A stretch of 38,503 bases of DNA from a virus. The position numbers and the translations under genes are program-made. Of the stretch, positions 1,435-36,536 are shown piece by piece (position 1 is the stretch's first letter; each line of letters opens with the position of its first letter). The stretch lies in the IMG/VR virus record IMGVR_UViG_3300021057_000024, positions 1 through 38,503 of that record; one strand, written 5' to 3'. The notes below the pieces were generated by a model that was given only the letters and a program-made list of their open reading frames with translations, made no database searches and was not told the origin of the DNA.

Positions 1435-1863
1435 ATGGCAATCCAGATAGTAGTCGAAGGAACACCGCGACCAGGCGGAAGCAAAACACCGGGCAAAACT
1501 AAGTCCGGCAAGCTGTTTGTCCGCGATGCCAATCCTTTGACTGCTGTCTGGAAAGCCGAGGTGGCCGACGCTGCCAACGCTCAATACTGGGGTGAGCTGC
1601 TCGACGGTCCTGTCAGTTGCCGCTTTCATTTTCGCTTTGCTCGCCCAAAACACCACTTCAGAAAGAACGGCGAACTCAAGCCCGATGCGCCGCGCTTTCA
1701 CACCATCACACCAGACTTGGACAAGATAGTCCGCTCAACAAGTGACGCGCTGACCGGCATCGTATGGACTGACGATGCGCTGGTATGCAGTCGCGCAGAA
1801 GAAAAACGTTATTGCAATCTGGGCGAGTTGCCCGGCGCCACCGTTACCATCTGGGAAGCCTAA
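1435..1863 (+). CDS. rusA: RusA-family Holliday junction resolvase
   Basis: This is probably a dimeric, metal-dependent endonuclease that cuts Holliday junctions, resolving recombination or replication intermediates before packaging. The diagnostic block is at ~97-122: PDLDKIVRSTSDALTGIVW followed by TDDALV. It matches the RusA pattern in which several Asp residues bind metal. The N-terminus, IVVEGTPRPGGSKTPG, is the usual RusA first strand and substrate loop. At 142 aa it is slightly longer than E. coli RusA. No strong ribosome site precedes the ATG, so it may depend on coupling to ssb, 6 bases upstream. Its TAA stop shares one base with the ATG of the primase-helicase gene. Phage replication modules often pair SSB and RusA. 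Confidence 0.9.
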   Translation: MAIQIVVEGTPRPGGSKTPGKTKSGKLFVRDANPLTAVWKAEVADAANAQYWGELLDGPVSCRFHFRFARPKHHFRKNGELKPDAPRFHTITPDLDKIVRSTSDALTGIVWTDDALVCSRAEEKRYCNLGELPGATVTIWEA

Positions 1864-3857
1864 TGCACGAAGTATTGAGCACCGCGCTGAACTATCGAGC
1901 CTGTGGGTTAAGCGTCATTCCGCTTGAACTTGACGGCTCAAGAAAACCGGCCCTCCGCACATGGGACCCATACACGGCCAAGCTGGCAACGGAGCGAGAG
2001 ATCACTGATTGGTTTCGTGATGGCAACCACGGCATCGGCATCATTGGCGGACCAGTGAGCGGCGGACTGGAAATCATTGACCTGGAAAGCATCGAGATAG
2101 CCAAAGCCTGGCAGCAGCGAGTCAAAGAAGCTGGCGGTGAGGCTTTGCTCAAGCGCCTGCTGGTGGTGAAAACTCCAAAAGGATTCCATGCCTATTACCG
2201 GTGCGACGAGCCCGGACGGAACAAAGACTTAGCCCGGCGCCCTGCGACTGAGGCAGAGCTGGCAGCCAAGCCGGAGCTGAAGTACTACAAACTCATCGAA
2301 ACACGCGGGGACCGTGGCTTTGTAGCAGCGCCTGGCTCGCCACCGGAGACGCACCCGAAGAAGATTCCATACAAGGTGGTCCAGGGCACCCATGAAGCCA
2401 TAAACAAAATCACGATGGCTGAGCGTGAGGTTCTCCTGGATGCGGCCCGCTCATTAAATGAATGGTTTGCAAAGGCATACGCTGAGCCACAGCCGGAGAC
2501 CACCGCCAAAGGCGACCAGCCCGGCGATCTGTTTGAAGCAAAGGCGACCTGGGCGCAGATACTTCAACCTAAAGGCTGGCGACAGAGCGCACCGGGCAGA
2601 TGGGTAAGACCAGGCGGCAAGCGTGACAGCGCTATGGAAATCCTTGGTGGCAAGAAGCTGTGGTGCTTCTCCAGCAGCGTCGGAGAGCTGCCCTTCGAGC
2701 AAGCCGTCAGCAAATTTGCAACCTATGCAATGCTCCACCACGAGGGCAACTTCCAGAAAGCCGCTAAACAACTGGCTGCTGATGGCTTCAAGCCGAAACA
2801 ACCAGAGAAGAAGCAGCGATCCGAAGTGATGGACTTCTCTCCGGAGCAGGAAGAACCGCGCTACCAGTTGCCGACGCTTCAGCTCTCGGATCTGATGAAG
2901 TCTCGCTTCCCGGCTCCCCGCTGGGCAATCGAAGACATGCTCCCCGAAGGTCTGACCATTCTGGCCGGAGCTCCAAAGATCGGCAAAAGTTACATGGCCT
3001 TGGACATCTCAATATCACTGTCGGCGGGTGACCCTGTTCTTGGCCACTACCAAACCAGCCAAGGCGAAGCGTTGTATCTGTCGCTGGAAGATAACAACCG
3101 CCGACTGCAGCAACGCGTTAATCAAATTTCCCCTGACTACGCGAAGACATCCAATAACACCAAGCTCCACCTGTGCACCGAGATTCCAAACATGTCCGAA
3201 GGTGGCATCGTTGCGCTTGAGCAATGGCTGGATAACCATCCTGATTGCCGCCTGGTCATCATCGATACCTTGGCTAAATTCCTGCCACCGAGCGACAACA
3301 AGGCGAATGCTTACCAGGCTGATTACCAAGCGCTAGGCAGACTTCAGAAGCTTGCGCTGAAACATGGAATCGCCCTGGTGGTAGTGCACCACGTGCGAAA
3401 GATGAAGGCCACTGATGTGCTGGATGAGGTCTCCGGTAGTGCCGGCTTCACCGGTGCCGCCGATGCGATCTGGGTACTGAAACGAGCTCGCACCGAAAGC
3501 ACTGGCACCATGCTCATCACCGGTCGAGACGTGGACGAAATCCAACTGTCCGCAACCTTCGATAAAGAAACTTCGAAGTGGACGCTTGATGGTGACGCTC
3601 GGCAGGATGCCCGCCGGAAAACTTTGATTTCGCTATACGGTCAGTTCAGAGAACAACCCTTTACCTACGAAGCTGCAAGGACGCCGCTCAATGGCTGCTC
3701 ACTAAGACACGCCACACGAATTGTGGGCGGTCTCGTTGACAGCGGTTACGCAACCAAGATGGAAGACACATCCACGACTGACACCAAGTTCAAACCGCTC
3801 CAATTCACACTCACTGAGCGGGTACCGGAGTTGCTTCTGGCTGGAGGTGAATCATGA
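1863..3857 (+). CDS. prim-pol primase fused to RepA-like (AAA_25) helicase
   Basis: A 664-residue two-domain replication protein expected to make primers and unwind DNA at the fork. The N-terminal ~200 residues resemble the bifunctional primase-polymerase (archaeo-eukaryotic primase) fold. They have an acidic IIDLES motif near 73-78, TPKGFHAYYR with the conserved His near 103-112, and RGDRGFVAAPGSPPE near 148-162. After a linker of ~120 residues comes a RecA-like ATPase: Walker A GAPKIGKS near 369-376, Walker B VIIDTLA near 464-470, then VVVHHVRK and GSAGFTGAADAIWVLKR. This layout occurs in phage and plasmid replicases. I set the start at ATG 1863, inside the previous stop (TAATG); the frame remains open upstream but only shadows rusA. 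No DNA polymerase gene is visible, so the phage may use the host polymerase or carry one outside the window. Confidence 0.9.
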   Translation: MHEVLSTALNYRACGLSVIPLELDGSRKPALRTWDPYTAKLATEREITDWFRDGNHGIGIIGGPVSGGLEIIDLESIEIAKAWQQRVKEAGGEALLKRLLVVKTPKGFHAYYRCDEPGRNKDLARRPATEAELAAKPELKYYKLIETRGDRGFVAAPGSPPETHPKKIPYKVVQGTHEAINKITMAEREVLLDAARSLNEWFAKAYAEPQPETTAKGDQPGDLFEAKATWAQILQPKGWRQSAPGRWVRPGGKRDSAMEILGGKKLWCFSSSVGELPFEQAVSKFATYAMLHHEGNFQKAAKQLAADGFKPKQPEKKQRSEVMDFSPEQEEPRYQLPTLQLSDLMKSRFPAPRWAIEDMLPEGLTILAGAPKIGKSYMALDISISLSAGDPVLGHYQTSQGEALYLSLEDNNRRLQQRVNQISPDYAKTSNNTKLHLCTEIPNMSEGGIVALEQWLDNHPDCRLVIIDTLAKFLPPSDNKANAYQADYQALGRLQKLALKHGIALVVVHHVRKMKATDVLDEVSGSAGFTGAADAIWVLKRARTESTGTMLITGRDVDEIQLSATFDKETSKWTLDGDARQDARRKTLISLYGQFREQPFTYEAARTPLNGCSLRHATRIVGGLVDSGYATKMEDTSTTDTKFKPLQFTLTERVPELLLAGGES

Positions 3858-6946: not shown

Positions 6947-7320
6947 TGCCGCTGGACCGAAAGACCTGCCGCAACTGTGGAGACTACACATCGTTCTATG
7001 TGCAGCTCGGCTTCAACGTTTACTGCTACACCTGCCATGTACTCATCAAACGCGAGAGCGGCATATTGCTTGCAATGAGAAGTGCATGGAAACCAGAAGG
7101 ACAGACCATGACTGCGACCATTACAAGACACGATCCGATTGCCACCGTCCGCTGCTCGCTTGCGACCTGCGAAGAGGTTATCTATCGAGACACGCTGGAC
7201 AAAGACCCGGGCTTCATTCTCAACGGAATGACCAACCAGCACTTCTGTTCAGAGGCTCACGCACAAGACTATCACGCAGCAATCAAGCGGCTTTCGGCTG
7301 CCTACATGGAGGGCTGGTAG
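6946..7320 (+). CDS. Cys-rich, probably zinc-binding protein, 124 aa
   Basis: Two Cys clusters suggest zinc sites: CRNCGDYTSF...YCYTC near residues 8-29, and CSLATC...HFCSEAH near residues 65-103. The family is not recognised. The start overlaps the previous stop (TAATG). An internal ATG at 7108, with GAAGGA upstream, would give a 70-residue product holding only the second cluster. The frame could therefore be two small zinc proteins joined, or one gene with a second start. The next gene begins immediately after the stop. Confidence 0.65.
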   Translation: MPLDRKTCRNCGDYTSFYVQLGFNVYCYTCHVLIKRESGILLAMRSAWKPEGQTMTATITRHDPIATVRCSLATCEEVIYRDTLDKDPGFILNGMTNQHFCSEAHAQDYHAAIKRLSAAYMEGW

Positions 7321-7575
7321 ATGGAAGGTGGGCTAGGCGTTTGGTTAATCGCCTCATTTGTGCTTGCCGGTACCTTCGGCTGGTGGCACGAAGAGTATCT
7401 CTTCAATAAGAAATACAGGTGTAGAATCTGCGGGCAATCGAAGCAACCATCAGATACGTGGTGCTTCAGTTGCTCCGGGTTCGCGTGGAGTCCAGACGAT
7501 CCACCGGGTCAATACTCGAACAAATGGTCTGGCAGATTTGGTACACACATGACAAAGGAGAAAATTGATGTCTGA
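7321..7575 (+). CDS. membrane-anchored zinc-ribbon protein, 84 aa
   Basis: An N-terminal membrane segment (residues ~6-21, GVWLIASFVLAGTFGW) is followed by a zinc-ribbon-like pair: CRICG at ~34-38 and CFSC at ~48-51. The rest is polar. The ATG directly follows the previous stop, and the C-terminus overlaps the next gene by 8 bases. Function is not recognised. A membrane anchor plus a CxxC...CxxC ribbon suggests a small regulatory or scaffolding role at the membrane, which is inference. Confidence 0.6.
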   Translation: MEGGLGVWLIASFVLAGTFGWWHEEYLFNKKYRCRICGQSKQPSDTWCFSCSGFAWSPDDPPGQYSNKWSGRFGTHMTKEKIDV

Positions 7576-7885
7576 AAATACAACACAAGCGATTGAAACG
7601 ACGGCAGTGGAAGAGTACTTTCCATCGGAAGACTTAGGCTCTCTGCCACGTCAAGGTCTCTTGCATGAAGAAACCGCAGAGCTGGTGGAGGAACTGTTCG
7701 CGTTTCACGCATGGACGCCGGAGATGATTGAAGGCGGGAAGCGAGTACGCGAAACGCTTGCAGATGCCTACAAGGCAATCATCAAGCACGTTCCGCCGAG
7801 CCCGTCTCGCACACGAGCGCTCAACTGCTTGACCGACGCACGCATGTTGGCCAACACGGCCATCACGTTTAAGGGCGTAGTTTAA
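7568..7885 (+). CDS. Acb2/Tad1-hairpin domain protein, candidate anti-defence cyclic-nucleotide sponge
   Basis: A 105-residue protein whose C-terminal ~60 residues match from memory the helical hairpin shared by phage Acb2 and Tad1-associated domains. The order is FHAWTPEMIEGGKRVRETLA at ~43-62, then IKHVPPSPSRTRALNCLTDA at ~69-88, and ARMLANTAIT near 88-97. In that family the block is usually FxYHxPxPEQ..., PPSxxxSxAIRKxxEAVMxANAAIA. Characterised Acb2 proteins form hexamers that bind cyclic di- or trinucleotides made by host CBASS systems, and relatives bind Thoeris signals. They act in the cytoplasm early in infection. The start is ATG 7568 (a TTG sits directly before it), with AAAGGAG upstream. 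It is the last gene of the early operon and converges with the lysis operon, the stops overlapping by 4 bases. The fold match is strong; the ligand is inferred. Confidence 0.78.
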   Translation: MSENTTQAIETTAVEEYFPSEDLGSLPRQGLLHEETAELVEELFAFHAWTPEMIEGGKRVRETLADAYKAIIKHVPPSPSRTRALNCLTDARMLANTAITFKGVV

Positions 7886-35396: not shown

Positions 35397-36020
35397 GTGA
35401 CACCTGCAAACATTTCCAAGGACATCAAGACGGCTGCTATCTACTGCCGTGTATCCACCGACGACCAAGACTGTGAGCGCCAGGTCCGAGACCTTACCGC
35501 CTTCGCCCAACGCTGTGGGTACCAGGTGATAGACGCGCATATATTTAGAGAGACCGCCTCCGGAAAGAAGACGACCAGACAAGTGCGCAATCTGGTGCTC
35601 CAACTAGCCCAAGCTCGCAAGATTGATGTCATCCTGGTGACTGAGCTCACGAGATGGGGACGTAACACAGTGGACCTGCTCAGTACCTTGCAGACTCTGA
35701 ACGAGTATGGAGTCTCCATCGTTGCTGAACGTGGTGTTCAGTTCGATCTGGGGACAGCACAGGGCAAGATGATAGCTGGCTTCATGGCCGTGTTGGCTGA
35801 GTTTGAAGCGAACCTGCTATCAGAGCGCACCAAGAGCGGTATGGCTACAGCCAGAGCCCGTGGTAAACACATTGGGAGACCGAAGGGCAACCGCACAGTA
35901 GGCAAACATCAGAAGGCTGTGAAGGAGCTAACCAGCCTTGGATTCAGTATCAGAGACATTGCAAGCAAGCTGAAGATAGGCAAAGAAACCGTGATGGCAT
36001 GCCAGCGAGCCGCCATCTGA
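35397..36020 (+). CDS. serine recombinase (resolvase/invertase family), 207 aa
   Basis: A site-specific recombinase that cuts and rejoins DNA through an active-site Ser. AAIYCRVSTDDQDCERQV near 13-30 holds the catalytic Ser in YxRVSTxDQ. ELTRWGRNTVDLLSTLQTL near 82-100 holds the conserved Arg residues (RxxR-type). GKMIAGFMAVLAEFEANLLS and ERTKSGMATARARGKHIGRP follow, the resolvase C-terminal helix and GRP hinge. The end (LGFSIRDIASKLKIGKETVM near 179-198) is the DNA-binding HTH. The size is that of small resolvases and invertases, not of the large phage integrases. The start is GTG 35397 with GGAG 8 bases upstream. It could act in dimer resolution, inversion of a segment or lysogenic integration. 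Confidence 0.92.
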   Translation: MTPANISKDIKTAAIYCRVSTDDQDCERQVRDLTAFAQRCGYQVIDAHIFRETASGKKTTRQVRNLVLQLAQARKIDVILVTELTRWGRNTVDLLSTLQTLNEYGVSIVAERGVQFDLGTAQGKMIAGFMAVLAEFEANLLSERTKSGMATARARGKHIGRPKGNRTVGKHQKAVKELTSLGFSIRDIASKLKIGKETVMACQRAAI

Positions 36021-36048: not shown

Positions 36049-36082
36049 TCAAGAGCCTGTGTACTGGTACATGGGCTCTTGA
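36049..36082. repeat. 9-bp inverted repeat with a GTACCAGTACA copy in its loop
   Basis: Arms TCAAGAGCC (36049-36057) and GGCTCTTGA (36074-36082). The loop holds TGTACTGGTAC (36060-36070), the reverse of the element in the downstream array. No T-tract follows on the plus strand, so it is a weak terminator at best. A protein-bound or cruciform site is likelier. Confidence 0.6.
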
Positions 36083-36113
36083 AGCAGAGAGAGAGAGAGA
36101 GAGAGTTTTCTAT

Positions 36114-36343
36114 GTCCATGGATAGCACTTTAGGCACTGGTGGCACTTTCTTCCATGGACATGGCTGGATGTCCATGGATGTCCACGGTGTCCACGGGCT
36201 ATTTATGCCGGTCTCGCTGATTGCATATCTGATGGCTATGCGTTCCCTTGGACATCCTTGGACACCCTTGGACTTTTTGCCCATGTCCACGGGTGAAGTT
36301 GGCTATTCATGCGGCTCTTGCATTTTGCCTGTTGCCGTGGACA
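36114..36343. repeat. ten-copy GTCC(A)(T/C)GG element array
   Basis: Copies on the plus strand begin at 36114, 36171, 36181, 36190 and 36285 (GTCCATGGA or GTCCACGG). Copies in the reverse sense are CC(T/G)TGGACA/T at 36246, 36256, 36266 and 36335. At 36152 TCCATGGAC reads almost the same both ways. Two groups are tightly packed with 9-10 base steps (36171-36198 and 36246-36273). This is far above chance and looks like binding sites for one protein. Confidence 0.75.
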
Positions 36344-36372: not shown

Positions 36373-36536
36373 GTACCAGTACATTAGCTCAAAGGCTCAA
36401 GACCGGCACCACGCCACGCTTTCAGGCGCTTTCCGACCGTACCAGTACATGCGCTGGTACCAGTACAGATATCCGGTTGTACCAGTACACAAATTGGCAA
36501 TGTACCAGTACAATCACCGCAGGCGGTACCAGTACA
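36373..36536 (+). repeat. six direct copies of GTACCAGTACA
   Basis: Exact 11-mers start at 36373, 36439, 36457, 36479, 36502 and 36526. The last five steps are 18, 22, 23 and 24 bp. The core GTACCAGTAC is an imperfect palindrome (GTAC...GTAC). The array ends 12 bases before the RHH gene, so it is its likely operator. Confidence 0.85.
36486..36514 (+). promoter_or_regulatory. candidate promoter of the RHH gene inside the array
   Basis: TACACA (36486-36491), a 17-base spacer and TACAAT (36509-36514). GTACCAGTACA copies overlap both hexamers, and another lies just after the expected start of transcription, as in an autorepressed promoter. Confidence 0.5.

Follow-up and report, generated by a model that had tools for sequence, protein, structure and literature searches.

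A mirrored two-strand array of a 9-bp word as a probable replication origin in a podovirus-like virus genome

The virus record analysed here over its full length of 38,503 bases (the window) holds, in the gap between its late-leftward and early-rightward gene blocks, an array of ten short elements on both strands, arranged about a common centre. This array is probably a replication origin, working like the primase-helicase origins of SaPIs, phage P4 and pRN1. An earlier note on this DNA had proposed three readings (an origin, a centromere-like site and binding sites for another factor), of which the comparison with other phages and the geometry of the array favour the origin most, the others being less likely. 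Under the mechanism proposed here, the words of the array would be read by an initiator, for which the phage's own Prim-Pol/RepA-type protein or a helper is the most likely candidate; one helicase assembly would be loaded per half-array, face to face across the 48-bp centre, and two forks would depart in opposite directions from that centre. As initiators diverge, the word would change and the arrangement would stay. Two features of the array count against this reading: most comparators have their array beside the helicase gene, which is not the case here, and the centre (36198-36245) is not AT-rich (52% AT).

Composition and symmetry of the array

A motif search confirmed that the ten elements of one 9-bp word at 36113-36343 are real, as the earlier note had described for a segment of about 230 bp. 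Nine of the ten exact copies of TGTCCANGG in the 38.5-kb contig fall within the array, whose remaining element is a near-copy (AGTCCAAGG) with one mismatch to this word. The single copy elsewhere, in a search of the whole window, lies at position 2998, so that the motif-density check suggested in the earlier note finds the word not dense outside the array. The number of TGTCCANGG copies per 231-bp span never exceeded two in 300 first-order simulated sequences of 38.5 kb, and the array ranks first in the window in an unbiased scan for dense two-strand 6-mers. The fuller consensus of the elements is ATGTCCANGG. The repeated word first given as GTCC(A)(T/C)GG exists, but its narrow form GTCCA(C/T)GG fits only seven of the ten elements, the other three being GTCCAAGG. 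The remaining features described at the outset are all present, namely both orientations, two groups packed in steps of 9-10 bp (36170/36180/36189 and 36246/36256/36266), near-palindromes within the array (TGTCCATGGATG) and a (GA)n run (Table 1). The segment also looks non-coding, as had been claimed: stops occur in five of the six reading frames across it, and the only ORF in the sixth, of 102 aa and with a TTG start, covers both the GA run and the array.

Table 1. Coordinates of the array and of the window genes discussed with it
Feature	Coordinates	Strand	Remarks
Whole array	36113..36343		ten 9-bp elements, + - + + + / - - - + -, dyad centre ~36222
Element 1	36113..36121	+	TGTCCATGG
Element 2	36153..36161	-	TGTCCATGG
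Element 3	36170..36178	+	TGTCCATGG
Element 4	36180..36188	+	TGTCCACGG
Element 5	36189..36197	+	TGTCCACGG
Central spacer between half-arrays	36198..36245		48 bp, 52% AT; putative opening region
Element 6	36246..36254	-	TGTCCAAGG
Element 7	36256..36264	-	TGTCCAAGG
Element 8	36266..36274	-	AGTCCAAGG, one mismatch
Element 9	36284..36292	+	TGTCCACGG
Element 10	36335..36343	-	TGTCCACGG
(GA)10 run beside array	36086..36105	+	
Small serine recombinase (resolvase/invertase family, 207 aa)	35397..36020	+	93 bp before array; same synteny in L172
Prim-Pol + AAA_25 (RepA-type helicase) protein, 690 aa, candidate initiator	1785..3857	+	~3.9 kb past array if circular

The orientations of the elements form a perfect dyad, which the earlier note had overlooked. 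Their centres lie at 36117, 36157, 36174, 36184 and 36193 in the left half and at 36250, 36260, 36270, 36288 and 36339 in the right half, and the midpoints of the inner four of the five mirror pairs all fall within 1 bp of 36222, that of the outer pair being 6 bp off. A repeat search recovers this layout as nested inverted repeats. The spacers between the elements show no mirroring, which points to a symmetry of sites rather than to an inverted duplication. A general dyad score for the array gives p ~0.02; by a stricter statistic, which was defined after the layout had been seen, one in 20,000 random layouts is as good.

A second array lies close by, with six same-direction copies of GTACCAGTACA at 36373-36536, just before ORF 36549; downstream of the recombinase gene, a terminator-like hairpin (36049-36082) has one reversed copy (36060-36070) in its loop. 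These copies look like operators. The two arrays had been considered unrelated, a judgement shared here because GTACCAGTACA differs both in word and in layout.

Genomic setting and nearest relative

The window is a podovirus-like genome, where the left-going strand encodes a T7-type head-tail adaptor, terminase and tail proteins, and the right-going strand carries the early block. An SSB and a RusA-type nuclease are also encoded. The helicase domain of the Prim-Pol/AAA_25 protein matches RSF1010 RepA (E 4e-6), and its primase domain matches pRN1 ORF904 (E 1e-4); no DNA-binding domain was recognised by sequence in the C-terminus of this protein. The last ORF of the contig (38170-38503) is in frame with the first (1-446) across the contig ends, which show no overlap; this suggests that the genome is circular or circularly permuted, the chance of an accidental in-frame joining being roughly one in three. 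The GC-skew check proposed in the earlier note places the lowest cumulative value at 35511, at a distance of 0.6 kb from the array, which gives the origin weak support because gene direction switches at the same point. The gap that precedes the recombinase gene holds four copies of GTGAAC in the same direction (35067, 35102, 35123 and 35144), the last three 21 bp apart.

Direct searches with the TerL, PrimPol and resolvase of the window found no close viral relative, and at the DNA level there were no matches among phages and one weak match among plasmids. The nearest relative, a 12.5-kb fragment (L172), surfaced only through a search with a two-sequence TerL alignment; a later scan with a resolvase alignment added only distant relatives, none of them with an array. 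L172 shares the gene order of the window, with identities of 56% for TerL, 54% for the portal, 57% for TerS and ~64% (63-65%) for the recombinase; a temperate lifestyle is possible for it, as the fragment includes the end of a tyrosine integrase. Directly 3' of its recombinase gene, in the same place as in the window, lies a two-strand array whose word, ATTGCCCG, differs from TGTCCANGG. The elements follow the order + - + + + / - - + - + -, the left half of which is the same as in the window, and are spaced in mirrored fashion (42, 14 and 20 bp) around two centres, by a statistic chosen after the fact. Array position and left-half order are thus kept between the two genomes, but the word is not, so that the conservation in relatives asked about in the earlier note holds for the place of the array and fails for its word. 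No helicase gene is in view in the 12.5 kb of L172, and the recombinase is the neighbour common to both arrays.

It is conceivable, although doubtful, that these genomes belong to a podovirus lineage with a resolvase-linked origin module, in which the iteron geometry would be kept and the word replaced outright between relatives, the specificity being swapped like a lock; the recombinase might then aid initiation or resolve replicated circles at the origin.

Arrays in other phages

Viral contigs were searched with a three-copy pattern and then with a two-copy pattern, and the matches were mostly coding repeats, those of the three-copy scan being mostly collagen-like GVQ repeats. In cellular genomes, the corresponding scan yielded one dispersed repeat from Prolixibacteraceae besides simple tandem repeats, which made up most of the matches, and no helicase-linked array was recognised among the matched stretches inspected. 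The dispersed repeat is palindromic, rich in TGTCCATGGT and found in one Prolixibacteraceae genome bin (L113, L114, L118, L121, L137 and L147).

Except for L037 and L079, the non-coding two-strand arrays from the viral-contig searches lie beside replication genes. For arrays with a TGTCCA core, the preceding gene encodes a Prim-Pol (L028), a CHC2/Toprim-AAA_25 protein (L058 and L091) or a VapE-type helicase (L095, L049 and L101), and in L068 such an array is located one small gene past a Prim-Pol-AAA_25 gene. No recognised initiator is encoded near the arrays of L037 and L079. In the former (7292-7635), an AT-rich stretch is flanked by two blocks that face outwards and together comprise eighteen GTCCACG copies; ribonucleotide reductase genes lie nearby. 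An array of the TGTCCATGG/TGTCCCAT type occupies positions 1787-2050 of L021, a viral contig of 50 kb, where it is preceded by a terminator-like hairpin and followed farther along by a CT-rich run.

A motif-independent sample consisted of 12 phages picked by helicase homology, in each of which the strongest two-strand array of 6-mers was located irrespective of its sequence. In eight of the 12 (PS3, CGphi29, PB15, RHph_Y3_1, MT836164, XX1924, 1N2-2 and LPPA36), this array coincides with or closely follows the 3' end of the helicase gene, its position ranging from 31 bp before to 381 bp beyond the point where the gene or match ends; the eight cases are not all independent, since PB15, XX1924, 1N2-2 and CGphi29 are related. 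Weaker TGTCC-type clusters lie at the helicase in VarioGold and Vibrio phage 1.076.O, and no such array was found at the helicase of ctHz2215, the closest phage in the annotated collection, or at that of Arthrobacter phage Eileen. The array words vary among the phages of this sample, and include TGAACC, TGTACC, TGTCCC, TTCCCA and TCATTG, among others. Contigs identified by terminase homology carry arrays after VapE genes (L196 and L207) and after an AAA_25 gene (L230), and in L220 (4641-4726) a dense GTGTCA/TGACAC array is embedded in an HTH_36/DnaD_N-type initiator gene, in the style of lambda O. An exact mirror layout, with six pairs, is found just past the primase gene of Marinobacter phage PS3; LPPA36, MT836164 and L037 have partly or wholly mirrored arrays, and most other arrays are unmirrored.

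Origins are unmapped in most uncultured phages. If the origin reading is true, a search for mirrored two-strand word arrays would find probable origins directly from sequence, and each word could be paired with a primase-helicase. The arrays would also represent a natural series for how initiator specificity shifts while origin architecture stays, as well as ready test pieces for the face-to-face loading of two helicases at a phage origin.

Alternative readings and comparison with known origins

The main rival, which is nonetheless unlikely, is that the adjacent serine recombinase uses the array as a res or enhancer-type site, to resolve multimers or to bring about inversion. The array starts 93 bp past the recombinase gene, this neighbourhood is common to L172, and resolvase half-sites often begin with TGTC. 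However, a classical res comprises three inverted-repeat subsites of roughly 25-34 bp, and the facing element pairs of the array span 49, 60, 66 and 105 bp. No TGTCCA cluster flanks the four plasmid homologues of the recombinase (53-54% identity), and TGTCCANGG and ATTGCCCG are completely different despite recombinases that are 63-65% identical, helix-turn-helix included. Moreover, similar arrays elsewhere adjoin helicases, not recombinases, and an alternative res candidate is provided by three TCGCGA palindromes in exact 23-bp steps (35231, 35254 and 35277) upstream of the recombinase gene.

An operator cluster for a repressor of the early rightward operon would also suit the location of the array, which separates the two gene blocks and precedes the early genes, but this reading is quite improbable: the array contains no convincing promoter (a scan found two sites against 1.5 expected), its mirror layout is unusual for such sites, and the neighbouring GTACCAGTACA array is the better operator candidate.

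A centromere-like partition site, of a phage living as a plasmid, is very unlikely. The resolvase and a small DNA-binding-like ORF nearby would be consistent with it, and in L028 a TGTCCACGG array is immediately followed by a ParB gene; nevertheless, no ParA and no ParB could be recognised in a scan of the window proteins that covered part of the ORFs. ParB as a general partner of the arrays was rejected because most of the array-bearing phages examined have no ParB beside the array.

That the segment acts as RNA, in the form of a long hairpin transcript, is scarcely credible and was dropped, given that its strong fold (-105.7 kcal/mol, z -4.8) is explained by the inverted orientation of the elements, to which the pairing is largely limited, and that it has no Rfam match. 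A DnaA-box cluster of the host oriC type was likewise rejected, because TTATCCACA-like 9-mers ending in CACA would be expected and the elements read ATGTCCANGG.

Returning to the replication origin as the preferred reading, the closest parallels are with elements that encode their own initiator helicase. In SaPI-type origins, iterons flank an AT-rich opening region. In SaPIs, the Rep helicase reads the iterons through its C-terminal domain (PMC7581432). The array likewise consists of multiple short iterons in non-coding DNA; however, a SaPI origin is placed directly downstream of rep, whereas the array follows a recombinase gene and its helicase reader is only a candidate. Since the array lacks an adjacent helicase gene (the distance is 3.9 kb if the genome is circular) and the centre is not AT-rich, the array is reported as a variant, not a member, of the SaPI-type origins.

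The ori of phage P4 holds type I iterons (TGTTCACC) and is used by the alpha protein. In both cases short TGT-type words lie on both strands, read in P4 by a primase-helicase that has a candidate counterpart here, although the P4 word is unlike that of the window. The origin of pRN1, in turn, is a stem-loop or inverted repeat that works when moved from its gene and whose fold, but not its sequence, is kept in relatives (PMC4234260). Its likeness to the window lies in the primase domain, which matches ORF904; in contrast, pRN1 has one stem-loop and no iterons were found by its authors (PMC4234260), and the array has ten discrete words. Phage L carries six TGTCCAACGGA repeats, very similar to the window word, in its initiator gene (gene 18), which have been proposed as the likely origin (PMC8022706); these differ in their location inside the initiator gene, as in lambda O, and no mirror layout has been reported for them.

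Finally, PS3, LPPA36, the Alteromonas phages PB15 and XX1924 and the Idiomarinaceae phage 1N2-2, among others, use other words and have the helicase gene adjacent, unlike the window, but all of them resemble it in holding dense two-strand arrays, which in their case come after primase-helicase genes, and PS3 (Marinobacter) and LPPA36 (Pseudomonas) share with it a similar mirrored order, with inward-facing pairs or triplets.
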